From an uncultured Roseateles sp. (GTDB lineage Bacteria > Pseudomonadota > Gammaproteobacteria > Burkholderiales > Burkholderiaceae): DNA of 19,895 nucleotides. The DNA lies in NCBI GenBank assembly GCA_946886855.1, contig CAMPJJ010000100.1, forward strand, positions 1 to 19,895, read 5' to 3'. How positions within the stretch are numbered: position 1 is the stretch's first letter; each line of letters opens with the position of its first letter. The notes under the pieces are model-generated. The model saw only the letters and a list, made by a program, of their open reading frames with translations, did no database searches and had not been told where the DNA came from. The position numbers and the translations under genes are program-made. Shown in pieces: positions 5,670 through 19,895 of the stretch.

Positions 5670-6857
5670 ATGTGGCGCATGATCCGAAAGACAGCCCCAC
5701 CGACCTGGATCTGGCAACGCCCGGACTGGCCGGCTTTCCACTACGACGCTCAGGCCGTGGCGCCCGACCTGTTCGAGGCCTACGTCATGCACGGCACCGT
5801 CGAGGGCAAGGCGATGGCCATCGGCCTCGGGGTGACGAGTCCTGTCGTGCTGGATGTGTTTGCCGACGAGGTCGTCGCCACGGCCGCGATCGAAGGGGAG
5901 CGACTGTCCGCCGATACCGTGCGCTCGTCGGTGCTCCGGCGGATGGGTTTGAGCGAGGCGGGGCCTGTCGACCGCCACGTCGACGGACTCGTCGCGATGA
6001 TCGCGGATGCGACGACCCGCATTGATCAGCCGCTGGACGACGATCGCCTCTGCCGCTGGCAGGCGGCGCTGTTCCCGAACGGCCTCTCCGGTCTCCAGCG
6101 CATCGCCGTGGGACGTTATCGCGAGCACGCGGATCCGATGCAGATCGTCAGCGGACGTCCCGGTCGGGAGGTGGTGCATTACCAGGCGCCTGCGTCACGC
6201 GACGTTCCTGCCGAGATGGCGCGTTTCCTCGCGTGGTTTGCGGCCACGACGCCGCGCAAGGGCGTCCCGCAAGCGTTGGACGGTCCGAGGTTGGATGGCC
6301 TCGCGCGCGCGGCGATCGCGCACTTCTGGTTCGAGAGCATCCACCCGTTCGAGGACGGAAACGGCCGCGTCGGCCGGGCGATCATCGACATGGCGATCGC
6401 CCAGCACCTCAGACCACCGATGCGGCTCCACAGCCTGTCCAGGCAACTGCTGACCGCCCGTGGCGAGTATTACGCGGCGCTGGAAGGCTCGCGCGGCGGC
6501 ATGGATCTGACCGCCTGGGTGCAATGGTTCGTGCGCCAGTACACCGGCGCCTGTGACGCCGCGAACCACGTCATGGACACCGCCGTCCAGAAGCGACGCT
6601 TCTGGGACGCGCATGCGGCCGTGTCGTTGGCGGAGCGCCAGCGCAAGGTCCTGCAGCGCCTGCTGGACGACGGCGACGGCGGCTTCCTCGGCGGACTCAA
6701 CGCCGAGAAATACATGAAGATGACCGGCGTCTCGAAGGCGACGGCGACGCGCGACCTGTCGGAGATGACCGCGGCCGGCCAACTGCGCGCGCACGGCGTG
6801 GGCAAGGCGGTGCGCTACTACGTCGACGTGCCCGGCTGGACGCACGGCATCGCGTAA
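5670..6857 (+). CDS. Fic family protein (DUF4172 N-domain, class II AMPylator)
   Basis: A 395-residue Fic protein. The N-terminal segment (about 1-60, TWIWQRPDWPAFHYD) matches the DUF4172 type. The inhibitory helix motif (S/T)xxxE(G/N) is present as TAAIEG (Thr71, Glu75), marking a class II, intramolecularly inhibited enzyme. The catalytic loop HPFEDGNGRVGR starts at His225 and has every key residue (H, D, GN, R). The C-terminus (about 330-390; YMKMTGVSKATATRDLSEM) is a winged-helix DNA-binding fold. Fic enzymes transfer AMP from ATP to a hydroxyl side chain of a target protein. No antitoxin gene is adjacent, as expected for class II. An in-frame ATG at 5679 is a possible alternative start. 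The tautomerase gene converges 14 nt after the stop. Confidence 0.93.
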   Translation: MWRMIRKTAPPTWIWQRPDWPAFHYDAQAVAPDLFEAYVMHGTVEGKAMAIGLGVTSPVVLDVFADEVVATAAIEGERLSADTVRSSVLRRMGLSEAGPVDRHVDGLVAMIADATTRIDQPLDDDRLCRWQAALFPNGLSGLQRIAVGRYREHADPMQIVSGRPGREVVHYQAPASRDVPAEMARFLAWFAATTPRKGVPQALDGPRLDGLARAAIAHFWFESIHPFEDGNGRVGRAIIDMAIAQHLRPPMRLHSLSRQLLTARGEYYAALEGSRGGMDLTAWVQWFVRQYTGACDAANHVMDTAVQKRRFWDAHAAVSLAERQRKVLQRLLDDGDGGFLGGLNAEKYMKMTGVSKATATRDLSEMTAAGQLRAHGVGKAVRYYVDVPGWTHGIA

Positions 6858-8048: not shown

Positions 8049-8477
8049 ATGGAAACACTTGGAACCCACTCCCCGGGCGCCGTCGTCGGCGCTCGCGATC
8101 TCGACGCGGCCAGACCGACGTCCACGCCCAAGCCCAAGCCCAAGCACACGCACACGCACACGCACACGCACACGCACACGTCCGCGTCCCCATCCCCATC
8201 GACATCGACATCGACATCGACATCGACATCGACCTGGCAGGGCGCGGTCGACCGGGCCGTGCGCCTGTGCGGCAGCCAGGCCGCGCTGGCCCGGCATCTG
8301 AAAGTGCCTCGGCAGCACGTCAGCGAGGCCCGCACGGGCGGTCGCACGATCCCGACGGACCGCCTGCCGGCGCTCGGGCAACTCGTCCACATGACCCCCG
8401 CCGAACTGTGGACCTTGCAGGAGGTGGCCAACATGCCGCGGCGCAATCCGTTCGCCCGCGATGGCAACGCGCCGTGA
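8049..8477 (+). CDS. Small HTH (YdaS/Cro-like) protein with repeat-built N-terminus
   Basis: A 142-residue protein. Its C-terminal half (about 63-130) looks like a YdaS/Cro-type helix-turn-helix: AVDRAVRLCGSQAALARHL, then VPRQHVSEARTG and IPTDRLPALGQLVHMTPAEL. These domains in prophage and plasmid genes bind DNA as Cro-like repressors. The N-terminal part (about 1-62) is low complexity and includes (PK)3, (HT)6 and (ST)6, encoded by three hexanucleotide microsatellites. The ATG at 8049 is the first convincing start, with AGGA about 12 nt upstream. A shorter protein lacking the repeats cannot be excluded, but no ATG lies just before the HTH. No partner toxin or phage gene was seen beside it. 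Confidence 0.7.
   Translation: METLGTHSPGAVVGARDLDAARPTSTPKPKPKHTHTHTHTHTHTSASPSPSTSTSTSTSTSTWQGAVDRAVRLCGSQAALARHLKVPRQHVSEARTGGRTIPTDRLPALGQLVHMTPAELWTLQEVANMPRRNPFARDGNAP
8127..8234 (+). repeat. Three abutting hexanucleotide microsatellites in HTH gene
   Basis: Within one 108-bp stretch lie (CCCAAG)3 at 8127-8144, (CACACG)6 at 8145-8180, then TCCGCG, two TCCCCA, five TCGACA and a final TCGACC up to 8234. All units are six bases and in register with the gene, giving Pro-Lys, His-Thr and Ser-Pro/Ser-Thr dipeptide runs. The perfect copies imply recent slippage expansion. Confidence 0.95.
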
Positions 8478-9191: not shown

Positions 9192-9440
9192 TCACTTCAC
9201 CGGCAACCCCGGCCTGATCCCGTACAACGCCAGCATGCCGAAGACATGGCCGATGGCGACGCCCGGTTCACCGGACTCGATCCGCGCGATGGTCTGGACG
9301 TGCACGCCCAGCCGCGTGCCCGCCGCACCCTGACTCTCGCCGGCCGCCGTGCGCGCGGCCTTCGCCGCGGCGCCCAGCGCCTTGATCGCCTGCAGGGCGT
9401 CGTCGTCGATGTCCACCGAAATGCGTTTGCCTTGTGCCAT
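9192..9440 (-). CDS. XRE/HipB-like HTH protein
   Basis: An 82-residue protein, MAQGKRISVDIDDDALQAIK and on. It contains an XRE helix-turn-helix (TRLGVHVQTIARIESGEPGV) followed by a short helix (HVFGMLALYGIRPGLPVK). The layout matches small antitoxin-like XRE proteins of the HipB kind, but no hipA-like toxin gene lies within the window. The frame stays open upstream into the M81 gene's antisense space; the ATG at 9440 is chosen because the M81 gene occupies the sequence beyond 9485 on the same strand. It follows the M81 gene by 44 nt and may be the last gene of that transcript. No strong Shine-Dalgarno sequence was seen. Confidence 0.78.
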   Translation of the reverse strand: MAQGKRISVDIDDDALQAIKALGAAAKAARTAAGESQGAAGTRLGVHVQTIARIESGEPGVAIGHVFGMLALYGIRPGLPVK

Positions 9441-9484: not shown

Positions 9485-10948
9485 TCACCCGAATCCGTGC
9501 GGGTCCGCCACCCTCGGCCAGTAGTCCAGCGATCGGGCGCGGTAGGGCGTGCTCGCGAAATCGCAGGTCATCGCCCCGGGCGTGGTGACGTAGAGCACCG
9601 CCTTGGCGATCGGCGCGAACTCGGCATGGAAGTGCTGCGTCGACTTCACCACGATCAGCGCCTTGTTCTCGAGCGTCAGGCCCAGGCCGGTGAACGCATC
9701 CGTGCCGTAGGTCTGCGTGCGGATCGAGCAGAGCACGATGTGCACGCCGTTCGCCGCCTCGACCCGCACGCAGGTGCCCAGCCGTTCGCGCGTGCCGAGC
9801 GCGGACTGGGTGTGGTCCTCGACGACCGCCCGCACCACGACCCGCAGGTCCAGCGGGTCGCCCGAGGCCGGTCCGCATTTGCCGCCGATCCGCAGGTCGA
9901 GCTCCGCGCCCACGCCCGCGTCGCGGCAGATGTGCACCGCGCCCAGGTCCCACAGGCAGCCGACGATGACGTTGCCGATGCCGCGCTGGACGATGCGGCG
10001 CAGGACGAAGGTGCTGTCGCACGGCGCGCCGCCGCCGGGGTTGTCGGCGATGTCGGCGAGCACCACCGTACCTTCGCCCATCGCGAGCGCGCGATCGAGC
10101 GCGCCGTCGACATCGATCAGTTCCGGTCCGATCGCCTCACGCAGCGCCCAGAACTCGCGGCCCAGCTGCTCGGCGAGCGAGCGCGCCAGCGCCGGATCGT
10201 CGTCGGTCACGACCCAGAGCTTCGCGCCCGCTTCGGGCACGTCGCCCCACGGGAAGCCATGGCCGAGCGAGATCGACAGCACGCCCGGTTCGCCTTCCAG
10301 CGCCTGCATGCGCGCGACGAAGGACTGCATCGGCTCGCGCGTCGTGTGCCAGAGGCCGACCATCTTGCAGTCGAAGGTCGCCGTGACCGGTCGCACGCGG
10401 CCCGCCGCCGTGTCGACGAGGAGCCGGTAGAGCTCGCGCCCGCGCGGTTCCGCGTCGATGTGCGGATACTCCTTGAACGCCACGATCGCCGTCGCCGAGC
10501 GCTGCATCAGCGCCGTGAGATGACAGTGCAGATCGAGCTCCAGCCCGATCGCGACGTCCGGACCCACCACCGCGCGGATGTGCGCCGCGAGGTCGCCCTC
10601 GCAGTCGTCGTAGCCTTCCGCGGCCATCGCGCCGTGCAGCAGCAGCTGCACCGCGTCGACCGGCATCGCCGCGCGCAGGTCGGCGAGGATTTCGTCGCGC
10701 AGCGCCTCGTAGACATGCCGCACCGTGCGGCCCGAGGGCTGGGCGATCGCGCAGAGGCTCTCGGCGACCTCATGGCCGTCGGCCTCGATCAGGTCGCGCA
10801 GGAAGCGCATGAAGGCGCCGGTGCCTCCGGGATCGCGCCGGCTCGCGTCGCCGTGGAAGATCCCGTACTCCTCGAAGCCGCCCAGCCCCGTCGGCGCCGG
10901 TGCGAAGGTGTTGGTCTCGGTGGCGAGGTGGGCGATGAAGAACTTCAT
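9485..10948 (-). CDS. M81 family metallopeptidase (MlrC-like)
   Basis: A 487-residue protein of the M81/MlrC family. It starts MKFFIAHLATETNTFAP with the family ETNTF motif (Glu11). LLHGAM follows, then the metal-ligand segment LDLHCHLT (Asp139, His141, His143) and a further ligand candidate His163 (YPHIDAEPRG), with a C-terminal MlrC domain. MlrC of microcystin-degrading sphingomonads is a zinc peptidase that cleaves the linear tetrapeptide made from microcystin; other family members act on unknown peptides. The usual DxHxN motif is DLHCH here, an apparent Asn-to-His change. There is no signal peptide, so it is cytosolic. The gene starts 22 nt after the upstream serine hydrolase gene, which suggests one operon. 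Confidence 0.9.
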   Translation of the reverse strand: MKFFIAHLATETNTFAPAPTGLGGFEEYGIFHGDASRRDPGGTGAFMRFLRDLIEADGHEVAESLCAIAQPSGRTVRHVYEALRDEILADLRAAMPVDAVQLLLHGAMAAEGYDDCEGDLAAHIRAVVGPDVAIGLELDLHCHLTALMQRSATAIVAFKEYPHIDAEPRGRELYRLLVDTAAGRVRPVTATFDCKMVGLWHTTREPMQSFVARMQALEGEPGVLSISLGHGFPWGDVPEAGAKLWVVTDDDPALARSLAEQLGREFWALREAIGPELIDVDGALDRALAMGEGTVVLADIADNPGGGAPCDSTFVLRRIVQRGIGNVIVGCLWDLGAVHICRDAGVGAELDLRIGGKCGPASGDPLDLRVVVRAVVEDHTQSALGTRERLGTCVRVEAANGVHIVLCSIRTQTYGTDAFTGLGLTLENKALIVVKSTQHFHAEFAPIAKAVLYVTTPGAMTCDFASTPYRARSLDYWPRVADPHGFG

Positions 10949-10970
10949 GGGTCGTTCCGTGCGCGCGGGC

Positions 10971-13058
10971 TCAGTAGTTGAGGTTGAAGGCCATCAGCTG
11001 ACCGACGACGCCGATCCAGACGATGCCCGCCAGCGCCAGCGCGACCAGCACGCCCCACACGCGCGTCAGACGCGTGGCATCGACGCGGAACAGTTTCCAC
11101 GCGACCCACACGCCGACGATTGCCGCCGCGATCGCGAACACGCCGCTCAATTGCATGAGACCGAACAGCCAGTCGTTGCCGCCGTTGTAGAGGGCGAGGT
11201 CGGTGCTGAGCACCGGCATGATCAGGACGATCCAGGCCGTCACGTAGACGAGGTCCACGCCGACGGCGACGCGCTGCCAGCGGCGCAGCTTCTGCAGCGC
11301 GGGCGAGGCGCCGCTCGTGGCGCGGTCCGCGCGTCGCAGCAGCGCGCCCAGCGGCCAGGCGGCGAGCGCGCCGGCCAGCACCAGCAGCGACAGGCCCAGG
11401 ATGCTCAGCGTCAACGGCGCCGAGCGCAGGAAGGGCGCTTCCTGCAACACGGAGACGGGGTTCTCGCTGTCGATCACCGTCTTCACGCCGTCGACGTCGG
11501 CCAGCGCGAGTTCCTGCGTGCCGCCCTGCTTGCGCCACAGCTGCGGCGCGACTTCGCGGAAGGTGGCCATCTCCCCCGTCGGGCCGGAGGGCGCGACGAT
11601 CGTGCCATCGGGATTGGCGGCAATCACCGTCTGGTTCATCAGGTAAAGCGCGCTGAGGAAGCCGTGTTCGACGCGACGCGAGGTCTGGTAGCGGCCCGCG
11701 ATCAACTGCGCGTCCTCGGGCGCCGACGCCAGCGCCGGCGCGTCGACGACCGGCTGACCGGGGAAGTAGCGGTCGAGGAAGCCCTCCATCAACGCCTTGC
11801 GCGCGAGGTAGACCGCCGAGTCCTTCCCGCGGCTGTTGAAGGACACGAAGATGCCGACGCCTTCATCGGGCAGCAGGCTGAGGTCGGAATGGAACACGAT
11901 GGTGTCGCCGCCGTGGCCCAGCAGGGTGCGGCCATTGCGGTACTCCCGGAAGAAGCCGTGCGCCATCACGTTGAAGCCGGGGCGCGTCTGCGCGGACGGG
12001 CTGTGCATCAGCGCGGTGGTGGCGGGGCTCAGGATCTCGACGCCGTTGAACTTGCCCTGCTGCAGGTGCGCGAGCATGAAGCGCGCCATGTCCGACGCCG
12101 TCGCGCTGCCGCTGCCCGCGGGCGCGGTGACGACGAGCTCGAACGGGGAGGGCGCGGGATCGCTCGCCTGCCGGTAGCCCTTCGCGATGAAGGGCTCGAA
12201 CTTCGCCGGCAGCGGCTGCGCCGTCGTCGAGTGCTGCATGCCCAGCGGCTGGAAGATGTGGCGGTCGACGTAGGTGTCGAAGGGCTCGCCCGACACCCGC
12301 TGCACGATGTAGCCGGCCAGCGCGACGCCGTAGTTGGAATAGCCCGGGGCCTGCCCCGGCGCGAACAGCATCGGCCGCGGATGCTGCTTCAGGTAGTCCT
12401 CGTTGGACGGCGCGAGCTTGGGGTCGTAGGCGAGCAGATCCTTCAGACCCTCCTCGAAGCCGGCGGTGTGGTTCATCAGATGCCGCAGCGTGACCGGCTT
12501 GCCGAAGGTCTGCGGGATCTTGAAGTCGAGGTAGTCGTTGACGTCGCGGTCCAGATCGAGCTTGCCCGCCTGGACCTGCTGCATCACCGCGGTCCAGGTG
12601 AACAGCTTGGAGGTCGAGCCGGGCCGGACCATCGAGGTCTCGGCGTTCATCGGCACCTTGGCCTTGACGTCCGCGTAGCCGTAGCCCTTCTGGAACAGCA
12701 CCTGGCCGTCCTTGACCACAGAGACGACGGCGCCGGCGATGTCGCCGGCCTCGAGCGAGTAGGCGACGCGGCCGTCCAGCCAGGCTTCGAGGTCGGCGGC
12801 GGTCAGCGCGACGGCAGCGCGAGCGCCCGAGGCGGGCAGCGCCGGCGGCTCGGGCGTGGCGGCGGTCTTCGGCGCGAGCGGCTTCGCCGGCGGGATCGCC
12901 GCGGGCTGACCGGTGGGTTGACCGGTGGGCTGGGCGACCGTCAAGGTCGCGAGCGCGGCGAGGACGGCGGCCAGCGCCAGCGGCAGCGCCCATCGTCCGA
13001 CGCGGGAGCGGGAGCGGGCGTGGCGGCCGGCCAGGCCGGTCTGCGGGGTCAAGGTCAT
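10971..13058 (-). CDS. Beta-lactamase-fold serine hydrolase with C-terminal membrane bundle (paralogue 1)
   Basis: A 695-residue exported enzyme. A signal sequence (hydrophobic stretch about 25-42, ending TVAQ) and a Pro/Gly/Gln-rich linker precede the class C/PBP-like serine hydrolase domain (about 85-420). The nucleophile motif is S148-T-S-K151, the second motif Y240-S-N242, and the third H382-G-G384. An additional domain of about 100 residues follows, then four hydrophobic segments (about 550-695), ending LMAFNLNY. Family members include DD-peptidases, esterases, D-aminopeptidases and MlrB. The catalytic domain is probably periplasmic and anchored by the C-terminal helices. The start at 13058 is set by GAAGGA 6 nt upstream; a further ATG at 13076 overlaps that site. 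It is a tandem paralogue of the gene upstream. Confidence 0.88.
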   Translation of the reverse strand: MTLTPQTGLAGRHARSRSRVGRWALPLALAAVLAALATLTVAQPTGQPTGQPAAIPPAKPLAPKTAATPEPPALPASGARAAVALTAADLEAWLDGRVAYSLEAGDIAGAVVSVVKDGQVLFQKGYGYADVKAKVPMNAETSMVRPGSTSKLFTWTAVMQQVQAGKLDLDRDVNDYLDFKIPQTFGKPVTLRHLMNHTAGFEEGLKDLLAYDPKLAPSNEDYLKQHPRPMLFAPGQAPGYSNYGVALAGYIVQRVSGEPFDTYVDRHIFQPLGMQHSTTAQPLPAKFEPFIAKGYRQASDPAPSPFELVVTAPAGSGSATASDMARFMLAHLQQGKFNGVEILSPATTALMHSPSAQTRPGFNVMAHGFFREYRNGRTLLGHGGDTIVFHSDLSLLPDEGVGIFVSFNSRGKDSAVYLARKALMEGFLDRYFPGQPVVDAPALASAPEDAQLIAGRYQTSRRVEHGFLSALYLMNQTVIAANPDGTIVAPSGPTGEMATFREVAPQLWRKQGGTQELALADVDGVKTVIDSENPVSVLQEAPFLRSAPLTLSILGLSLLVLAGALAAWPLGALLRRADRATSGASPALQKLRRWQRVAVGVDLVYVTAWIVLIMPVLSTDLALYNGGNDWLFGLMQLSGVFAIAAAIVGVWVAWKLFRVDATRLTRVWGVLVALALAGIVWIGVVGQLMAFNLNY

Positions 13059-13064
13059 CGGGAT

Positions 13065-13070
13065 TCCTTC
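13065..13070 (-). promoter_or_regulatory. Ribosome-binding site deciding start at 13058
   Basis: GAAGGA on the minus strand lies 6 nt before the ATG at 13058. The alternative ATG at 13076 would place this sequence inside the coding region and has no such site of its own. Confidence 0.65.
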
Positions 13071-13128
13071 AAACAAGCACGGGCGCGCCTTGTGAGCGCG
13101 CCCTGATCCACAGCCGGGGACCGCGGGT

Positions 13129-15186
13129 TCAGAAGTTCTGGTTGAAGCTCATCAGGTGGTGGGCGGCGCCGATCACGATCAGCACGATGAACGCCAGCAC
13201 CCACACCACCGCCAGCGCCTTCGCGGACCTGCCTCCGCCCTTGAGCGCGAGCCGCGCGTGCCACAGCGCCGCGAGCAGTCCGCCGATGAAGGCCAGCAGG
13301 GTCAGTCCTTGCGCGAGGGGCAGGACGACGCTCAGGTCGCCGTCGCCTTCCAAGCGCGTGAACACCAAGGTCCAGAGCGCGACGGCGAGCAGCACGAGCA
13401 CGCTGGCGACGCGCACCGCCAGCACCGACCGTCCCGGCGCTGCGGCGCCGTGCTTGCGGCGCAGCACCGCGGCGACCGGCCACAGCAGCGCGGTGAGCAG
13501 CATCGTCGCCAGCGACAGGCCGGCCATCAGCAGGGCCAGACCGCCTGACAGCGCCGGGACCGGCTCGAAGACGAACGCGAAGACGTAAGGCTCCAGGCCC
13601 CAGCGCAGCACGCGGCCGTTCTCGACGATCGCCTGGAGGCGGCGCTTGCCGTGCTCCTCTTCCCACAGGTAGGGCCTGACCTCGCGGAACACGCTGCGCG
13701 AGCCGGCCAGCTCCAGCGCGACGCGGCCGTCGTCCAGCGCCTGCACCTTCAGCGGGCTGAGCAGCGGCAGCAGCGAGAAGAAGGTCGAGTCCTCGCGCCG
13801 GGTGCTCTGGTACGAACCGGCCAGCTGCTGCGCATGCTGCTTCGCGGTCGCGTCGTCGACCTGCCGCGGCGTCGCCGGGCGCGCATCGGGCAGATAGCGG
13901 TTGGCGAAGGCGTCCAGCAGCGTGTCCCGCAGCCACTTGCCCTGGCCGTCCTTGCCCGGGGAGTTGACCGAGATGTACAGCCCGATGCCGTCGTCGACGA
14001 ACAGCAGCAGGTCGGTGTGGAAGAGGATGGTGTCGCCGCCGTGGCCGACGACGCGATGGCCGTTGATGTCGTGCTGGTAGAAGCCCAGTCCGATGCCGAG
14101 CAGGTCCGGCATCGGCTTGGTGAGCTGGCCGTGCATCTGCTTCACGGTCTCCGGCCGGAGCAGGCGCGCATCGCCGAGCTGCCCCTGCTGCAGGAAGGCC
14201 AGCATGAAGCGGCCCATGTCCGCGCCCGTCGCCGACAGGCTGCCGGCGGGCGCCAGGCTGACGATCTCGAAACCCTTGCCGGGTTCGCCCTGTTTCTCGT
14301 AGCCCTGCGACATCAGCGGCGCCAGCGCCGGCGGCAGCGGCTGGCGGAAGGTCGCATGCCGCATGCCCAGCGGGGAGAAGATCTTCTGCTCGACATAGTC
14401 GTCGAAGGGCAGGCCGCTGACGCGCTGCACGATGTAGCCGGCGAGCGCGGTGGCGTAGTTCGAGTAACCCGGCCGCGCGCCCGGCTCGTAGAGCGCGGGC
14501 GGGATGTAGTCCTTGAGCACCTTCGCCAGATCGGGCGACTTGCCCGAATAGGTGATCAGGTCGCGCGCCGTCTCCTCGAAGCCGGTCGTGTGCGTGAGCA
14601 CGTGGCGCAGCGTCATCGGCTTGCCGTTGAGCTGCGGGATCTTGAAGTCGAGGTACTGGTTGAGGTCGGCGTCCAGGTTCAGCTGGCCCTGCTCGACCAG
14701 CTGCATCACCGCCGTCCACGTGAACAGCTTGGACACGGAGCCCGGGCGGAACAGCGTGCGCGCCGCATCGACGGGGACGCGCCGGTCCCAGTCGGCGTAG
14801 CCGTAGCCCTTCTGGATCAGCGGCTGGCCGTCCTTCACGATGACGACGACGGCACCCGGCACCTGCGCCATCTTCAGCGCGGCGGGCATCAGGCCGTCCA
14901 GCCAGGCTTGCGCGTCGGCCAGCGTCAGGGGTTGGGCGGCGGCCTTTGCAGCGGTCGCGCCCGTCGCGCCCGTCGCGGCGCTCGCGGCGACGGGCGTCGT
15001 CGCGGACGCGCCGGAAGTGCTGGCGGCGGTGGAAGCGCCCGAGGCCGCCGAAGGCGGCGACGTCGCGGTGATCGGCGCGATCAGCACCGACTTGGGCGTG
15101 GTTGTCGGCGTCTGGGCCGACGCCGTCGGCAGCGCCGCGCAGACGGCCAGCATCAGGGCGCCTAGGCGCAGGGTCAGGGGCTTCAT
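13129..15186 (-). CDS. Beta-lactamase-fold serine hydrolase with C-terminal membrane bundle (paralogue 2)
   Basis: A 685-residue tandem paralogue of the gene at 10971-13058. A signal peptide (1-24, ending PTASA) and a long Ala/Ser/Thr-rich linker (about 25-90) lead to the catalytic domain: S150-V-S-K153, Y241-S-N243 and H382-G-G384. As in the paralogue, a non-catalytic domain and C-terminal hydrophobic segments (about 535-685) follow, and the protein ends LMSFNQNF. Shared blocks such as TLRHVLTHTTGFEE and GYIVQRVSGLPFDDYV show common origin. It probably cleaves or rearranges a peptide or ester in the periplasm; MlrB-like linear peptide cleavage is one candidate, DD-peptidase or lipase activity are others. 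It starts 10 nt after the TonB receptor stop, so it is probably translationally coupled. Confidence 0.88.
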   Translation of the reverse strand: MKPLTLRLGALMLAVCAALPTASAQTPTTTPKSVLIAPITATSPPSAASGASTAASTSGASATTPVAASAATGATGATAAKAAAQPLTLADAQAWLDGLMPAALKMAQVPGAVVVIVKDGQPLIQKGYGYADWDRRVPVDAARTLFRPGSVSKLFTWTAVMQLVEQGQLNLDADLNQYLDFKIPQLNGKPMTLRHVLTHTTGFEETARDLITYSGKSPDLAKVLKDYIPPALYEPGARPGYSNYATALAGYIVQRVSGLPFDDYVEQKIFSPLGMRHATFRQPLPPALAPLMSQGYEKQGEPGKGFEIVSLAPAGSLSATGADMGRFMLAFLQQGQLGDARLLRPETVKQMHGQLTKPMPDLLGIGLGFYQHDINGHRVVGHGGDTILFHTDLLLFVDDGIGLYISVNSPGKDGQGKWLRDTLLDAFANRYLPDARPATPRQVDDATAKQHAQQLAGSYQSTRREDSTFFSLLPLLSPLKVQALDDGRVALELAGSRSVFREVRPYLWEEEHGKRRLQAIVENGRVLRWGLEPYVFAFVFEPVPALSGGLALLMAGLSLATMLLTALLWPVAAVLRRKHGAAAPGRSVLAVRVASVLVLLAVALWTLVFTRLEGDGDLSVVLPLAQGLTLLAFIGGLLAALWHARLALKGGGRSAKALAVVWVLAFIVLIVIGAAHHLMSFNQNF

Positions 15187-15196
15187 GGGGCGGCGT

Positions 15197-17500
15197 TCAG
15201 AAGTTGTAGTTGACCGAGGCGCCGATCGTGCGCGGCTGCGCCGGCGTCGCGCGCAGCGGGCCGCCGAAGGCGGTGAGCGCCGTGTCGGCGCCGAGGATCG
15301 CGCGCTTGTCGGTCAGGTTGCGGACGAAGGCCGACAGCTGCCAGGCGCCGAAGTCCATGCCCCACTGCGCATCCACCAGCGTGTAGGCCGGCATCACGAA
15401 GTTGGGGATGGAGGTGGTCTCGCTGTCGTAGCCCGCGTTGCGCTTGCCGACGTGCCGCACCTGCAGGCTGGCGTAGGACGGCTTGCCCGCCAGCGCGAAG
15501 TTGTAGCGCGCGCCCAGCGACACGGACAGCTTCGCTGAGTTCGGCAGCCTCGCGCCGGAGGGGCCGAGGGCCGGCGCGTCTTCCTTGAGCTTGCCGTCGG
15601 TCCAGGCCAGGCTGCCCTCCAGGCGCCAGTCGTCGTTGATCGCATAACGCGACGCCAGCTCCAGCCCCTTGACCTCGGCCTTGCCGGCGTTGCCCATCAC
15701 CGTGGTGGCGCCGAAGGCGAGCGGCTGCTGCAGCTTGCTCCAGCGGATGTCGAAGAGCGCGACCTCCAGCGACAGGCGCCGGTCCAGCAGGTCGGCCTTG
15801 TAGCCGGCCTCGTAGCTCCAGAGCGTGTCGGCCTCGAACGAGGTCGGCGCGCCGGGGATGACCTGGCCGTTCTCGTCGATCGCCTGCGGGTTGGGGCCGC
15901 CGGGACGGTAGCCGCTGGCGGCGCGGACGTAGACGCTGCTCTGCTTGTCGAGCGAATAGCGACCCGTGATCAGGTAGGTGTTCGACCGGTCCTTGGACGT
16001 GGCCGGTGCCGGGAAGTCCGGGACGTCGTTGGTGAAGGTCTCGTAGGCCTGCTTGTTGCGCGCCACGCGGGCGCCCAGCGTGAAGGACAGCGCCGAGCTG
16101 GGATTCCAGGTCACGTCGCCGTAGACGGCGTTCTCCTCGTAGCTCGCGGGCTGGCCCACGCGCACGAGCTCCGCGTCCGCATCGGCCCCGGTGGGACGGC
16201 CCCACAGGCGCTGGTTGTAGCCGTTGCGTTCCTTGTTGTGATACAGGCCGATCAGCCATTCGACGGTGCCGCGCGCCGAGGTCAGGCGCAGCTCCTGCGT
16301 TTCCTTGCGCAGCTTGGTGCGGTTGTCCAGCTGCACGAAGTCGAAGGCGCCGCCGCCCAGGATCTCGGTGGCGTCCAGCAGCGTGTCGCCGTTGAAGCGC
16401 TGGCTCGACACGATGGCGTTCAGGCGCGCCCAGCCGAAGTCGTAGTCGACGTCCGCCGAGAGCAGCCGCGTGCGGATGCTGTAGGGCTCGGAGATCGACA
16501 GGTCGTGCGTCAGGTCGCCGTGCAGCGGCTGGCCCGTCGCGACGTCGTACTGGACCACGCCGGTGCCGTTGCGTTCGATCTTCTGGTCGACCGCGGAGAG
16601 GCGGACCTTCATCTTCGACATCGGCTCCAGCAGCAGCGAGACCCGCCCGCCGCGGGTGTCGCCGTCGTTGACGTGCTTGCCCGACGCCAGGCCGGAGGCC
16701 TTGATGTAGCCGCCGTCATGGTCGTTGAAGGCGGCCACGCGCAGGGCGGCGACGCCGGCGCTCAGCGGCACGTTCACCACCGCGTTCTCCGTGTGTCCGA
16801 GCGCGCCGCCCTTGATGCCGCGCACGCCCAGGCCGACCTTGCCGGAAAACTCCAGGGTGTCGGGTTCGTTGGTGACGTACTTGAGCAGGCCGCCCATCGC
16901 GCCCGCGCCGTAGAGCGTGCCCTGCGGGCCGCGCAGCAGCTCGATGTGATGCAGGTCCAGCAGCGACATGTCGAGCGCCGCCACCGCCGCGCCGCCGAAG
17001 GCGGTGCTGGAGCCGTAGGCCACCTCGTCGACATAGGTGCCGACCGTCGCCGTGCCCGCGCTGCCCACGTTGATGCCGCGGATGCTGACCTGGCCGCGGC
17101 CGGGGCCGCCGTCGCTGCTCACGTCCACGCCGGGCAGGCTGCCGACGTAGTCCACCAGGGAGCCGGCGCCCGCGCGCTCCAGGCCCTCGGCGCTGATCGT
17201 CTCCACGCGCAGCGGCACGTCGCGCAGCGGTTCGCGGCGGCGCGTCGCGGTGACGGTCACGACCTCCAGCTTCTCCGCCTTGGCCGCGGCGCGGTCACCG
17301 TCCCGTTCGCTGGGCACTGCGGACGACGCTGGCGCGGCGGGCGGCAGCGGCGCGGCGGCCTGGCTCCACGCGGGCAGCGCCTGCATCGCGGCGAGGCAGG
17401 GCAGCAGCAGGGGCGCGAAGGCGAAGCGTCGCGCGTTCCGTGCGGAAGGCGCTCGGCGGCTGGATCGGGCAGGGCGGGGAGCGCGGGGGGAGACGGTCAT
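15197..17500 (-). CDS. TonB-dependent outer-membrane receptor
   Basis: A 767-residue receptor. A signal peptide (Arg-rich start, hydrophobic FAFAPLLLPCLAAMQAL, cleavage near residue 48) leads to a TonB-box-like segment VVTVTATRR. The plug domain has SLPGVDVSSDGGPGRGQVSI, RGIN and LRGPQGTLYGAGAMGGLLKY, and a long beta-barrel ends SVNYNF with the required terminal aromatic residue. No FecA-type signalling extension is present. TonB receptors carry bulky scarce substrates across the outer membrane. The operon partners suggest a peptide or peptide-derived substrate, but a siderophore is possible. The ATG at 17500 has AGGAG 8 nt upstream; the frame stays open to 17809 but that part overlaps the divergent regulator. 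It is the first gene of the minus-strand cluster. Confidence 0.92.
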   Translation of the reverse strand: MTVSPRAPRPARSSRRAPSARNARRFAFAPLLLPCLAAMQALPAWSQAAAPLPPAAPASSAVPSERDGDRAAAKAEKLEVVTVTATRRREPLRDVPLRVETISAEGLERAGAGSLVDYVGSLPGVDVSSDGGPGRGQVSIRGINVGSAGTATVGTYVDEVAYGSSTAFGGAAVAALDMSLLDLHHIELLRGPQGTLYGAGAMGGLLKYVTNEPDTLEFSGKVGLGVRGIKGGALGHTENAVVNVPLSAGVAALRVAAFNDHDGGYIKASGLASGKHVNDGDTRGGRVSLLLEPMSKMKVRLSAVDQKIERNGTGVVQYDVATGQPLHGDLTHDLSISEPYSIRTRLLSADVDYDFGWARLNAIVSSQRFNGDTLLDATEILGGGAFDFVQLDNRTKLRKETQELRLTSARGTVEWLIGLYHNKERNGYNQRLWGRPTGADADAELVRVGQPASYEENAVYGDVTWNPSSALSFTLGARVARNKQAYETFTNDVPDFPAPATSKDRSNTYLITGRYSLDKQSSVYVRAASGYRPGGPNPQAIDENGQVIPGAPTSFEADTLWSYEAGYKADLLDRRLSLEVALFDIRWSKLQQPLAFGATTVMGNAGKAEVKGLELASRYAINDDWRLEGSLAWTDGKLKEDAPALGPSGARLPNSAKLSVSLGARYNFALAGKPSYASLQVRHVGKRNAGYDSETTSIPNFVMPAYTLVDAQWGMDFGAWQLSAFVRNLTDKRAILGADTALTAFGGPLRATPAQPRTIGASVNYNF

Positions 17501-17508
17501 TCGGTGGA

Positions 17509-17513
17509 CTCCT
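17509..17513 (-). promoter_or_regulatory. Ribosome-binding site deciding TonB receptor start
   Basis: AGGAG on the minus strand is spaced 8 nt from the ATG at 17500. It supports that start over the longer open frame, which would run through the operator and into the regulator gene. Confidence 0.75.
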
Positions 17514-17541
17514 GGCGAGGCGGGCGAAGTTGAGCCGCAAG

Positions 17542-17577
17542 TTTCCAATTTGGAAAAAGCTTTCACATTGGTGGAAA
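17542..17577. promoter_or_regulatory. Candidate operator of the XRE-cupin regulator
   Basis: TTTCCAATTTGGAAA (17542-17556) is a perfect 7-1-7 palindrome. Four bases later lies a degenerate second copy, TTTCACATTGGTGGAAA (17561-17577), which keeps the outer TTTC and GAAA half-sites. Both sit between the receptor gene and the divergently transcribed XRE-cupin gene, in an AT-rich island of otherwise GC-rich DNA. Position, symmetry and duplication are typical of a repressor site; binding is inferred. Confidence 0.65.
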
Positions 17578-17605
17578 CCTTAGCTGCTATTGCGCGAAGC
17601 TTCAA
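17577..17605 (-). promoter_or_regulatory. Possible sigma-70 promoter of the receptor operon
   Basis: On the minus strand TTGAAG (17600-17605) is followed after 17 nt by TAAGGT (17577-17582). The -35 box is good and the -10 box weak. A promoter here would place the palindromes at 17542-17577 at and just after the transcription start, a position suited to repression. Confidence 0.3.
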
Positions 17606-17675
17606 CTCAGGGTGATCGCGGTGGTCCCTGGGGACCGCCTTGCTAAGATCGCTGCACTGTCTGCTTCCCTCGACC

Positions 17676-18407
17676 ATGGCCATCGATTCGAACCTTCCCG
17701 GCGACCACATCCGCAGCGTGCGACGACGGTTGGGCCTGACGCTCAGCGACGTGAGCGGGCGGACCGGCCTGGCGGTGTCGACGCTTTCCAAACTGGAAAA
17801 GGGCAACATGTCCCTGTCCTACGACAAGCTGATGCTGCTGAGCAAAGGCCTGGGCGTGGACATGGCGGAGCTGCTGGCCGACGTGCCCGGCTCGCGCGCC
17901 GCGCCGGGCGGCGGCGGACGTCGGATCGTCGAGCGCGCCGGGGAAGGGCAGCAGGTCGTGACGGAGAGTTATCAGCAGCTGTATCTGGCGACGGAGCTCC
18001 TGAACAAACGCGTCACGCCGTTGATCGCCGAGGTGAACGCGCGCACGTTGGACGAGTTCAAGGCGGAGTTCGGCGATCTGATCCGCCATCCCGGCGAGGA
18101 GTTCGCGTACGTGCTGGAGGGCGAGATCGCCTTCCACTGCGAGCTGTATGCGCCGGTGGTGCTGAAGGCCGGGGACTCGATCTACTTCGACAGCGAGATG
18201 GGGCACGCCTACCTGAAGGCGTCCGACGCCCGCTGCCGCGTGCTGGCGACCTGCGCGCCGCGCAGCAGCGGCACGCCGGACGGGTTCAGCCAGCATTTCA
18301 TCGATGTGTCCAAGCGTCTGCAGGAGCCGGCACCGGCGCCCGCACCAACCACCTCGGGCAAGGGCGCGAAGGCTGCAGCCACGAAATCGCGCGGTTCGAA
18401 GCGCTGA
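17676..18407 (+). CDS. XRE-family regulator with cupin sensor domain
   Basis: A 243-residue regulator. An N-terminal XRE helix-turn-helix (about 8-65; LTLSDVSGRTGLAVSTLSKL) is followed by a linker and a C-terminal cupin (about 120-200) with HPGEEFAYVLEGE (His138) and GDSIYFDSEMGHAY (His177). A Lys/Ala/Pro-rich tail ends the protein. XRE-cupin proteins such as PuuR and PsdR are usually local repressors of catabolic genes, with the cupin sensing a metabolite; PsdR of Pseudomonas controls dipeptide use. This gene diverges from the receptor operon across 175 nt containing a palindrome, so it is the probable regulator of that operon. The ATG at 17676 gives the usual N-terminus; an upstream TTG at 17640 is possible. 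No clear Shine-Dalgarno sequence was seen. Confidence 0.9.
   Translation: MAIDSNLPGDHIRSVRRRLGLTLSDVSGRTGLAVSTLSKLEKGNMSLSYDKLMLLSKGLGVDMAELLADVPGSRAAPGGGGRRIVERAGEGQQVVTESYQQLYLATELLNKRVTPLIAEVNARTLDEFKAEFGDLIRHPGEEFAYVLEGEIAFHCELYAPVVLKAGDSIYFDSEMGHAYLKASDARCRVLATCAPRSSGTPDGFSQHFIDVSKRLQEPAPAPAPTTSGKGAKAAATKSRGSKR
17785..17799. promoter_or_regulatory. Operator-like palindrome inside the regulator's HTH codons
   Basis: TTTCCAAACTGGAAA matches the intergenic palindrome at 13 of 15 positions and keeps both half-sites (TTTCCA, TGGAAA). It overlaps codons for the HTH residues LSKLEK. It may be a second binding site about 230 nt away, allowing looping or roadblock, or a chance result of the conserved protein sequence. 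Confidence 0.4.
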
Positions 18408-18418
18408 TTGTCCTGACC

Positions 18419-18548
18419 CGACCCTCACCCCGACCCCTCTCCCGCAGTGCGGGAGAGGGGCCAAGTAGCACCGAGCCTGCAACGACTACTTCTGAGCGGT
18501 GGAGGCCCCCTCTCCCGCACTGCGGGAGAGGGTTGGGGGTGAGGGTCG
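18419..18548. repeat. 41-bp inverted repeat with palindromic arms between convergent genes
   Basis: Arms 18419-18459 and 18508-18548 are inverted copies agreeing at 39 of 41 positions, separated by 48 nt. Each arm holds its own near-perfect palindrome: 18434-18460 with half-arm CCCCTCTCCCGCA, and 18508-18532 with CCCTCTCCCGCA. Inside the spacer AAGTAG (18463) and CTACTT (18486) extend the symmetry. It lies just after the XRE-cupin stop and overlaps the last codons of the convergent transporter gene. It could terminate both transcripts; its form also fits a small dispersed palindromic element. Confidence 0.9.
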
Positions 18549-19895
18549 TGCCAACGCCTCGGTCGGCGCCTCGAGCCTCCTCAACAGGGGTCCCAGCGCG
18601 AGCAGCGCCATCGAGGCCGCGGCGGCGAGCGCTGCAAGCAGCACGAAGAATCCGGCCGGCCCGAGCCACTCCCACGCGCGTCCCACGACCCCCGACAGCA
18701 GGTTGCCCGCGAAGGCCGCGAGGAACCACGCGGCAATGACCGTCGCGCCCATGCCCGACGGCGCGAGCCGCGCGAACAGGCCCAGCCCCACCGGCAGGAT
18801 GTAGAGCTCGCCCATCGTGTAGACCGCGAAGAACACCAGCAGCCACAGGCCGCTCACCGGCTTGCCATCGGACATCGCAGCCATCGCCGCCAGCAGCAGG
18901 TAGGCCGCGGCGACGCCGGCCGCGCCGATGGCCATCTTCCGCACCGGCGCGGGTTCGCGGCCCTTCACGGCCGCGCGCCGCCAGGCGCGGATCAGCAGCG
19001 GCGTGAACAGGAAGACGAACAGCGGGTTGAGCGACTGCACCCAGGTCACCGGGATCGCGACGCCGAAGGCGTGCAGGTCGACGCTGCTGTCCGCCCACAA
19101 CGCCAGGGTGTTGCCGCTGTGCGCGTAGGCGCTGCGGAACACCATCACCGCCAGGGCCACCAGCAGCAGCGGCACGACGATCGCAGCCGCGCCGGGTTTG
19201 CGCCGTGCGTTGCCATCGACTGAGCCCGCAGACCCGGTGACGTCAGTCGAACCCGTCGAACCACCCGTCGATCCCGCAGCCCCCGCTGCATCGGGGCTCG
19301 CGGCGTTGGCGGCCCGCGCGGATGTATCCCGCGGCCGGTCCTGCGGCAGATGCCGCCCGCCGAGCAGGTAGATCGCCAGGCCCACGCACATGCCGACGCC
19401 CGCGGCGCCGAAGCCCCAGTGCCAGCCGTAGACCTCGCCCAGCGTGCCGCAGGCCAGCGGCGCGAGCAGCCCGCCGAGGTTCACGCCCACGTAGTAGACG
19501 TTGTAGGCGCCGCCGCGGCGGGGATCGTCCTCGGCGTAGAGATCGCCGACCTGGCTCGGCAGGTTGGGGAGGAAGAGGCCGTTGCCCAGCGCGATCAGCA
19601 CGAGGCTCGGATAGAACATCGCCTCCCAGCTCAGCGCGAAATGCCCCACCGCCATCAGGCTGCCGCCGATCACGATCGCGAGGCGGCGCCCGAGCCAGCG
19701 GTCGGCGAGGTAGCCCCCGGCGATCGGCGTCAGGAACACGCCGCCGGTGTACAGGCCGTAGATCAGCGAGGCGTCGGCCTGCGTGAAATGCAGCTGCTTG
19801 GTCATGTAATAGACCAGCAGCGCGCTCATCCCGTAGAAGGAGAAGCGCTCCCACATCTCGGTCAGGAACAGCACGGTGAGCCCGCGCGGCTGGCC
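18486..19895 (-). CDS. POT/PTR-family proton-dependent peptide transporter, 5' partial
   Basis: The frame stays open to the window edge. The visible N-terminal residues GQPRGLTVLFLTEMWERFSF, followed by YG, carry the POT signature ExxERFxxYG with more sequence before it, so the true start lies outside. The 469 residues seen include multiple hydrophobic helices, the second family region YNVYYVGVNLGG, and a hydrophilic Gly/Ser/Thr/Ala-rich insertion between helices (about 19190-19340). POT carriers bring di- and tripeptides across the inner membrane with protons; MlrD of the microcystin cluster is of this general type. The last residues, TLSRSAGEG and the tail after it, are encoded by one arm of the inverted repeat at 18508-18548, so the C-terminus has been replaced or extended by that element. 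Confidence 0.9.
   Translation of the reverse strand, partial: GQPRGLTVLFLTEMWERFSFYGMSALLVYYMTKQLHFTQADASLIYGLYTGGVFLTPIAGGYLADRWLGRRLAIVIGGSLMAVGHFALSWEAMFYPSLVLIALGNGLFLPNLPSQVGDLYAEDDPRRGGAYNVYYVGVNLGGLLAPLACGTLGEVYGWHWGFGAAGVGMCVGLAIYLLGGRHLPQDRPRDTSARAANAASPDAAGAAGSTGGSTGSTDVTGSAGSVDGNARRKPGAAAIVVPLLLVALAVMVFRSAYAHSGNTLALWADSSVDLHAFGVAIPVTWVQSLNPLFVFLFTPLLIRAWRRAAVKGREPAPVRKMAIGAAGVAAAYLLLAAMAAMSDGKPVSGLWLLVFFAVYTMGELYILPVGLGLFARLAPSGMGATVIAAWFLAAFAGNLLSGVVGRAWEWLGPAGFFVLLAALAAAASMALLALGPLLRRLEAPTEALARPSPPTLSRSAGEGASTAQK

Follow-up and report, generated by a model that had tools for sequence, protein, structure and literature searches.

An M81 peptidase locus with an XRE-cupin regulator in an uncultured Roseateles, probably for scavenging D-amino-acid-containing peptides

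What purpose is served by genes that resemble parts of the microcystin-degrading mlr system but occur with other partners? We asked this of positions 9485-19895 of a 19,895-nucleotide stretch (hereafter the window) from an uncultured Roseateles sp. (GenBank assembly GCA_946886855.1, contig CAMPJJ010000100.1), where an earlier note had described an mlr-like locus for the uptake and degradation of a bulky or cyclic peptide. The parts that it named, which are a TonB receptor, two exported S12 hydrolases, an M81 peptidase, a POT carrier and an XRE-cupin regulator, were all found there by domain matches. We argue that the locus is probably a regulon complete in itself, under XRE-cupin control, by which the cell scavenges D-amino-acid-containing peptides. 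This reading draws on gene content, operon layout, catalytic residues, co-localisation statistics and shared palindromes, all of them features of sequence. Possible substrates include nonribosomal peptides, muropeptides and microcystin-like peptides.

Four genes follow one another on the minus strand: a TonB-dependent outer-membrane receptor (15197-17500; PF07715 plug and PF00593 barrel), the S12 serine hydrolases a (13129-15186) and b (10971-13058; both PF00144), and an M81 family metallopeptidase of 487 amino acids (9485-10948; PF07364 and PF07171, MlrC_C). Because the intergenic gaps measure only 10, 70 and 22 base pairs (bp), these genes likely form a single operon, and a ribosome-site-like AGGAG lies ahead of the receptor start at 17500. 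The regulator gene (17676-18407, plus strand; 243 amino acids) is divergent from this predicted operon and convergent with the gene for a POT/PTR2 proton-coupled oligopeptide carrier (18486-19895, minus strand; PF00854), the 5' end of which lies beyond the window. About 42 bp before the receptor start, in the regulator-receptor intergenic region, stands a 15-bp palindrome, TTTCCAATTTGGAAA (17542-17556), our proposed operator. Searches for a sigma-70 promoter or a terminator gave no match in 17380-18560.

The earlier note could not have seen D-amino-acid genes because the window ends inside the POT gene. The nearest named relative is Mitsuaria sp. GD03876 (locus L001 in the 6.4-Mb genome G001; L-numbers denote compared loci and G-numbers compared genomes), whose M81 protein is 87% identical. 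All six window proteins were matched in L001 when 80 loci were compared, and the two loci are collinear also beyond M81, with Fic, flavoprotein, histidine kinase, SDR, GST and GNAT genes in unchanged order. Directly past its POT gene, G001 carries DauA-like and DgcA-like genes. The DauA-like neighbour scored 301 bits against D-arginine dehydrogenase (3nyc), and the DgcA-like protein of G001 scored 180 bits against E. coli L-Ala-D/L-Glu epimerase (1jpd). Around M81 in relatives we found DauA, DgcA, DgcN, DadA and D-aminopeptidase-like genes, and the neighbour families identified were DauA-type dehydrogenase, DgcA/L-Ala-D/L-Glu epimerase, DgcN, RidA, AstA and a D-serine-dehydratase-like protein. 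Of the further recurrent neighbour families, nine were annotated through one representative each, and of the single neighbours a minority. In the available excerpts of one report, dgcN is the key gene in a route that racemises D-acidic amino acids (PMC12363236).

We quantified this association in an even sample of 200 genomes from the family to which G001 belongs, counting a gene as near M81 if it lay within 12 kb. The sample held 52 M81 genes (E <= 1e-60) in 25 genomes, 87 DauA-like copies in 80, 18 DgcA copies in 11 and 8 DgcN copies in 7. In M81-positive genomes, 20 of 28 DauA copies were near M81 where 0.32 would be expected, as were 10 of 16 DgcA copies (0.21 expected) and 4 of 6 DgcN copies (0.09 expected). 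When four sample genomes were left out because their loci belonged to those where the link had first been noticed, the counts were 14 of 22, 7 of 13 and 3 of 5. Viewed from the peptidase, 28 of the 52 M81 genes had DauA or DgcA within 12 kb, and 9 of the 11 DgcA-positive genomes were also M81-positive.

The palindrome supplies a connection of another kind. It was absent from 200 shuffles of the window, and a scan of 128 sequences with the reversed pattern as control gave no match, even with one mismatch allowed. Loci L121 and L108 have the palindrome at the same position, L110 and L113 have a slightly changed version there, and in all four a second site lies between the POT and DauA matches. 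In L002 and L114, which lack POT, a one-mismatch site lies between the receptor and DauA genes; L008 has a one-mismatch palindrome before its receptor. The palindrome is common to the receptor operon and DauA, the D-amino-acid dehydrogenase, and is a more direct connection between the two than gene order alone. Exact TTTCCAnnnTGGAAA occurred genome-wide three times in G001, three times in G096, twice in G002 and once each in G128 and G074, and in none of five other searched genomes. The copies in G001 (3/3), G096 (3/3), G002 (2/2) and G128 (1/1) all lay at such loci, one of the three in G001, and likewise in G096, being inside the regulator gene, which may be a coding coincidence. The window's own second match within the regulator gene (17785-17799) was not counted as an operator, since its letters also encode LSKLEKG of the helix-turn-helix domain and the match is weaker in L110.

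With up to one mismatch, G002 had five sites, every one of them at one or other of three separate M81 loci; one is in a regulator gene and another 80 bp ahead of the third M81 gene. The single site in G005 preceded the receptor gene at the locus, four of six sites in G128 belonged to a pair of M81 loci, one of the four being within a regulator gene, and G001 and G096 had 11 and 8 sites, of which 3 each were at the locus. G002 (Roseateles violae, the genome of L002; C1, C11) has five M81 genes, and its palindromes are distributed as if one regulator served several loci. The regulator itself combines an XRE helix-turn-helix (PF01381, HTH_3) with a cupin domain (PF07883, Cupin_2), as befits an XRE-cupin protein. 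Excerpts from a study of this class describe such proteins as local repressors with palindromic sites adjoining their own genes, assign to PsdR the control of dipeptide uptake and degradation, and mention D-methionine held in a Vibrio XRE-cupin structure (PMC7901475). Few palindromic sites near the regulator's own gene is also the pattern that the sequence here suggests, and TTTCCAnnnTGGAAA is the likely operator of this regulator.

Several observations weigh against this reading. The D-amino-acid genes are known from relatives and not from the window itself, and the DgcA-like gene of G001 scored 343 bits, below the family cut-off of 400. Neither DauA nor DgcA was within 12 kb of 24 of the 52 M81 genes in the family sample, and the co-localisation P-values are optimistic because related genomes were treated as independent. 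In a survey of 299 genomes across the phylum, the 20 other M81-positive genomes (23 M81 genes) had 14 DauA copies, only 2 of them near M81, with 0.09 expected; the link is therefore not universal for M81. Palindromes also occur elsewhere: single one-mismatch copies had no visible link in L007, L039, L078, L084, L103 and L118 (128 sequences), the exact copy in G074 is away from such loci, and so are 8 of 11, 5 of 8 and 2 of 6 sites with up to one mismatch in G001, G096 and G128. Finally, the closest relative does not conserve E87, the residue by which DauA contacts D-arginine. DauA, together with AstA in two Massilia loci, had hinted at D-arginine in particular as the substrate; we dropped this idea because E87 is replaced, and arginine is accordingly not favoured. 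D-amino-acid catabolism is nevertheless a better common denominator of these loci than kinship to mlr, and a limited literature search found no report tying M81 to it.

How far, then, does the resemblance to mlr extend? A periplasmic S12 hydrolase, an inner-membrane PTR2 carrier and a cytosolic M81 peptidase are a real likeness, at the family level only. The peptidase, which the earlier note called MlrC-type, does have both PF07364 and MlrC_C and the E/D/H/H zinc site of the M81 family. The ligands given for MlrC are E39, D167, H169 and H191, with H196 for the last in one passage of the portion available (PMC9982164). In a pairwise alignment, these correspond to E11, D139, H141 and H163 of the window protein, which are conserved in 135, 141, 142 and 142 of 142 aligned M81 rows, the remainder at E11 being seven gapped rows. 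The protein has no hydrophobic segment and is predicted to be cytosolic. Closeness to MlrC itself did not hold up: the window M81 scored 343 bits against the curated MlrC model (NF041767; cut-off 999), and a quick maximum-likelihood tree of 102 rows placed it in a 45-row clade (support 97), whereas MlrC shared a long branch with L112_4 and L118_6 (support 99), the placement of long rows being unsure. This tree drew on the 142 aligned rows, leaving out five P-numbered proteins and the duplicate L116 and thinning other distant loci randomly to 25. The M81 family is large, with at least 7262 matches among 7998 scored candidates. The MlrC substrate residue E70 fell on G41 in one pairwise alignment, yet on a variable loop in the multiple alignment, and nothing was concluded from it. 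A plasmid megablast gave matches in 6 records that each covered 5% or less of the query. A tblastn of MlrC against plasmids gave no match above 60% identity.

The hydrolases bear the label MlrB-type at the PF00144/S12 level only, because, at 685 and 695 amino acids, each has an N-terminal hydrophobic segment, a linker and four C-terminal transmembrane-like segments, which we predict to form a membrane domain. SxxK, YxN and HxG are the signature of S12 and class C enzymes, and both proteins carry it as STSK, YSN and HGG (S150-K153, Y241 and H382 in S12a; S148-K151, Y240 and H382 in S12b). They are paralogues with 42% identity. MlrB, as described in excerpts of two papers, has 541 amino acids and is exported with a signal peptide and no transmembrane helix (PMC11070527, PMC12474180). 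An AlphaFold model of S12a was of low confidence (mean pLDDT 59.8, 9 sequences) and served for a helix count and a loose fold match only; it showed four long C-terminal helices, and full-length ClbP (7mdc) ranked 48th among its fold matches. ClbP-type peptidases have a periplasmic S12 domain with C-terminal membrane helices, the architecture predicted here. ClbP activates a self-made prodrug, and we know of no uptake locus of which it forms part. The second-best sequence match of S12a in the PDB was 9sn1 (92 bits), the Lip3 DL-peptidase of Paenibacillus, which is of similar length and, according to excerpts of a commentary, cuts DL bonds of the lipopeptide syringafactin (PMC13188892). Lip3 is distant and from a Gram-positive source, and in the portions of the literature available we found no TonB-POT-M81 locus described around it.

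The carrier was assigned to PTR2 with 292 bits against TIGR00924 (cut-off 130) and the sequence TEMWERF, of the ExxER type of POT carriers. The family named in the earlier note stands; the POT gene lies outside the receptor-S12-S12-M81 unit. No CPBP (PF02517) match was found among the window genes scanned, in agreement with the stated absence of MlrA. The receptor's best NCBIfam match was TonB-siderophore at 150 bits, below the cut-off of 223.5. In the divergent intergenic region, the best Fur-like site had 10 mismatches of 19 to the Fur consensus, which is background level.

The cluster is conserved beyond close relatives, and the idea of a locus devoted to taking up and degrading peptides, under a regulator of its own, is supported. 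Rearranged gene sets occur in Massilia (L003, L004) and Scleromatobacter (L008), and these with L001 are the only 4 of 80 loci in which POT was matched. In a second set of loci, L108, L110 and L113 have a receptor, a single S12 protein, POT, the regulator and DauA, which are 60-73% identical to the reference proteins, with M81 at 44-45% identity and in a different clade. Other Burkholderiales have an MFS carrier instead, and directly ahead of M81 an S12 protein in which no signal peptide is obvious; its best full-length family in 4 of 4 tested cases was D-aminopeptidase NF009622, at 144-153 bits and thus below the cut-off of 443. Further loci (L074, L077, L095, L097-L099) run XRE-cupin, DauA and M81, then a Dpp ABC transporter, an arrangement also seen in the alphaproteobacterium Microvirga (L021).

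Within 10 kb of M81, the 45-row clade had a receptor in 36 rows, S12 in 42, MFS in 32, POT in 5, XRE-cupin in 12 (the crude gene finder missed the L001 regulator) and DppA in none. DauA, DgcA, DgcN, DadA or DSD was present in 33 of the 45; the window counts among the other 12 because it ends too early, and absences in this clade are uncertain because several loci lie on short contigs. The 56 other M81 rows had such D-amino-acid genes in 26 cases and DppA in 27. Outside the window's clade, one annotated representative each indicated gamma-glutamyltranspeptidase near M81 at 6 loci (L022:16916-18523), an M20 hydrolase at 14 (L029:11464-12624) and a PRK09061-subfamily amidohydrolase at 8 (L056:16086-17579). 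Pandoraea horticolens (L018) has TonB receptor-M81 pairs in tandem and an XRE-cupin gene.

How might these parts work together? Substrate class, compartments, order of steps, repression and ligand are what we infer in the following scheme. The TonB receptor would import peptides that exceed porin size, and the two membrane-anchored S12 peptidases would trim them in the periplasm, probably at bonds adjoining D-residues. The di- and tripeptides so produced would pass through POT into the cytosol, to be hydrolysed there by the zinc-dependent M81 enzyme. Released D-amino acids would then be oxidised by the DauA-type dehydrogenase or converted by the DgcA/epimerase-type enzyme. The regulator would repress promoters via TTTCCAnnnTGGAAA until its cupin domain was occupied by a ligand, for which a D-amino acid or D-peptide is plausible.

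Other explanations share parts of this scheme. An mlr-like route, in which microcystin-type cyclic peptides pass through the receptor, S12 trimming and POT until M81 frees the last residue, with another enzyme opening the ring, is unlikely in our estimate. Microcystins contain D-residues, and the parts and their predicted compartments match MlrB, MlrC and MlrD at the family level, so far as the accessible sections describe them (PMC12474180). From similarly partial sources, genes for a dipeptidase and a D-aminoacylase lie next to the mlr cluster in Sphingopyxis C-1 (PMC4520899), and Paucibacter toxinivorans 2C20 degrades microcystins without mlr genes (PMC8068134). A 4.7-Mb metagenome-assembled genome labelled Paucibacter toxinivorans (G009, genome of L016; loci L116-L120), which is not strain 2C20, has nine M81 matches, some of them fragments, and several adjoin DgcA, S12 or TonB-receptor genes. 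Specific kinship to mlr is nonetheless not supported: the score and clade of M81 and the S12 architecture speak against it. No ring-opening enzyme was seen among the window genes scanned, nothing that we noticed in the locus points to the cyclic substrate suggested earlier, and microcystin in particular would leave the D-amino-acid enzymes and shared palindrome unexplained. Scavenging of fragments of peptidoglycan from other bacteria, that is, stem peptides of L-Ala, gamma-D-Glu, a diaminoacid and D-Ala, is a special case of the D-peptide reading with which its probability overlaps, and seems somewhat improbable as the specific function. The S12 family includes DD-carboxypeptidases and the relative's DgcA-like protein matches the E. 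coli epimerase, but no typical murein-recycling gene was found among the annotated neighbours, a minority of all neighbours, and in relatives the presence of DgcN next to DgcA suggests free D-Glu from any source.

The receptor's resemblance to siderophore receptors raises the question of whether the locus imports foreign peptide siderophores, which often contain D- or hydroxy-amino acids, and breaks them down to obtain iron and nitrogen. Several relatives have ECF/FecR pairs next to them, and L014, L019 and L093 have beside them a gene distantly related to 3-hydroxy-D-aspartate aldolase. Set against this are the background-level Fur-like site, the XRE-cupin type of the regulator, and an annotated subset of neighbours in which no iron reductase or siderophore gene was found, and we consider xenosiderophore scavenging very unlikely. 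Equally hard to credit is an ordinary oligopeptide operon for L-peptide nutrition, in which the D-amino-acid genes would be bystanders. POT carriers take L-di- and tripeptides, and M81 elsewhere accompanies Dpp transporters, at some loci a TRAP permease, and often no recognised D-amino-acid gene; yet co-localisation in the family sample was far above chance, and the palindrome is common to the receptor operon and DauA.

Scavenging of D-amino-acid peptides, the reading that we prefer, has partial precedents. The mlr system of sphingomonads (MlrABCD) likewise joins a periplasmic S12 hydrolase, a PTR2 carrier and a cytosolic M81 enzyme around a D-residue peptide, as predicted here from genes. Unlike it, the locus has no MlrA that we could see, an M81 of another clade and paired, membrane-anchored S12 proteins, and adds a TonB receptor, an XRE-cupin regulator and, in relatives, D-amino-acid enzymes. 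Relatives of DauA and of the DgcN-DgcA D-glutamate pathway occur in homologous loci, but we found no description of these enzymes with M81 or TonB receptors, and the D-arginine contact is not conserved. The PsdR regulon of Pseudomonas aeruginosa employs other peptidase and transporter families. With its XRE-cupin regulator beside the targets, palindromic site, and dipeptide uptake and degradation (mdpA, dppA3), it is otherwise alike, and the excerpts available describe no outer-membrane receptor or D-amino-acid dehydrogenase in it (PMC7901475). The individual parts are known; their combination, the shared palindrome and the association of M81 with D-amino-acid genes were not found described in a limited literature search.

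The window holds some further features. A small XRE-type helix-turn-helix protein (9192-9440) lies 44 bp past M81 on the same strand and had no tblastn match in the 80 loci (E <= 1e-8). Inverted GC-rich repeats, CCCCTCTCCCGCA and TGCGGGAGAGGGG, occupy 18434-18520 in the convergent gap between regulator and POT, enter the POT 3' end and resemble a REP element. At about 8050-8330, a short-period low-complexity repeat translates as DVDVDV or VCVCVC, and adjoining it is a YdaS-like helix-turn-helix frame of 72 amino acids (8259-8477), below the Pfam cut-off. A Fic/DUF4172 protein (5670-6857) has a weak DIP2311-like C-terminal match and keeps its position in L001.

The experimental work on M81 that we met in the literature concerns the microcystin-degrading MlrC. 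The positional and palindromic link to D-amino-acid enzymes gives the M81 family a testable function and names a likely operator, and so suggests what a large group of enzymes, known chiefly for degrading a cyanobacterial toxin, may do. It also bears on the recycling of D-amino-acid peptides, often considered hard to degrade, and provides candidate genes for the mlr-independent peptide degradation reported in Paucibacter toxinivorans. It is possible, and we advance it only tentatively, that hydrolysing D-amino-acid peptides is the core job of many non-microcystin M81 ('MlrC') enzymes. In Burkholderiales, one modular type of regulon, made up of an XRE-cupin operator, a D-amino-acid dehydrogenase and M81 with swappable importers (TonB, membrane-anchored S12 and POT or MFS, or else Dpp ABC), might then feed on nonribosomal and cell-wall peptides and supply mlr-independent microcystin breakdown in Paucibacter-like bacteria.

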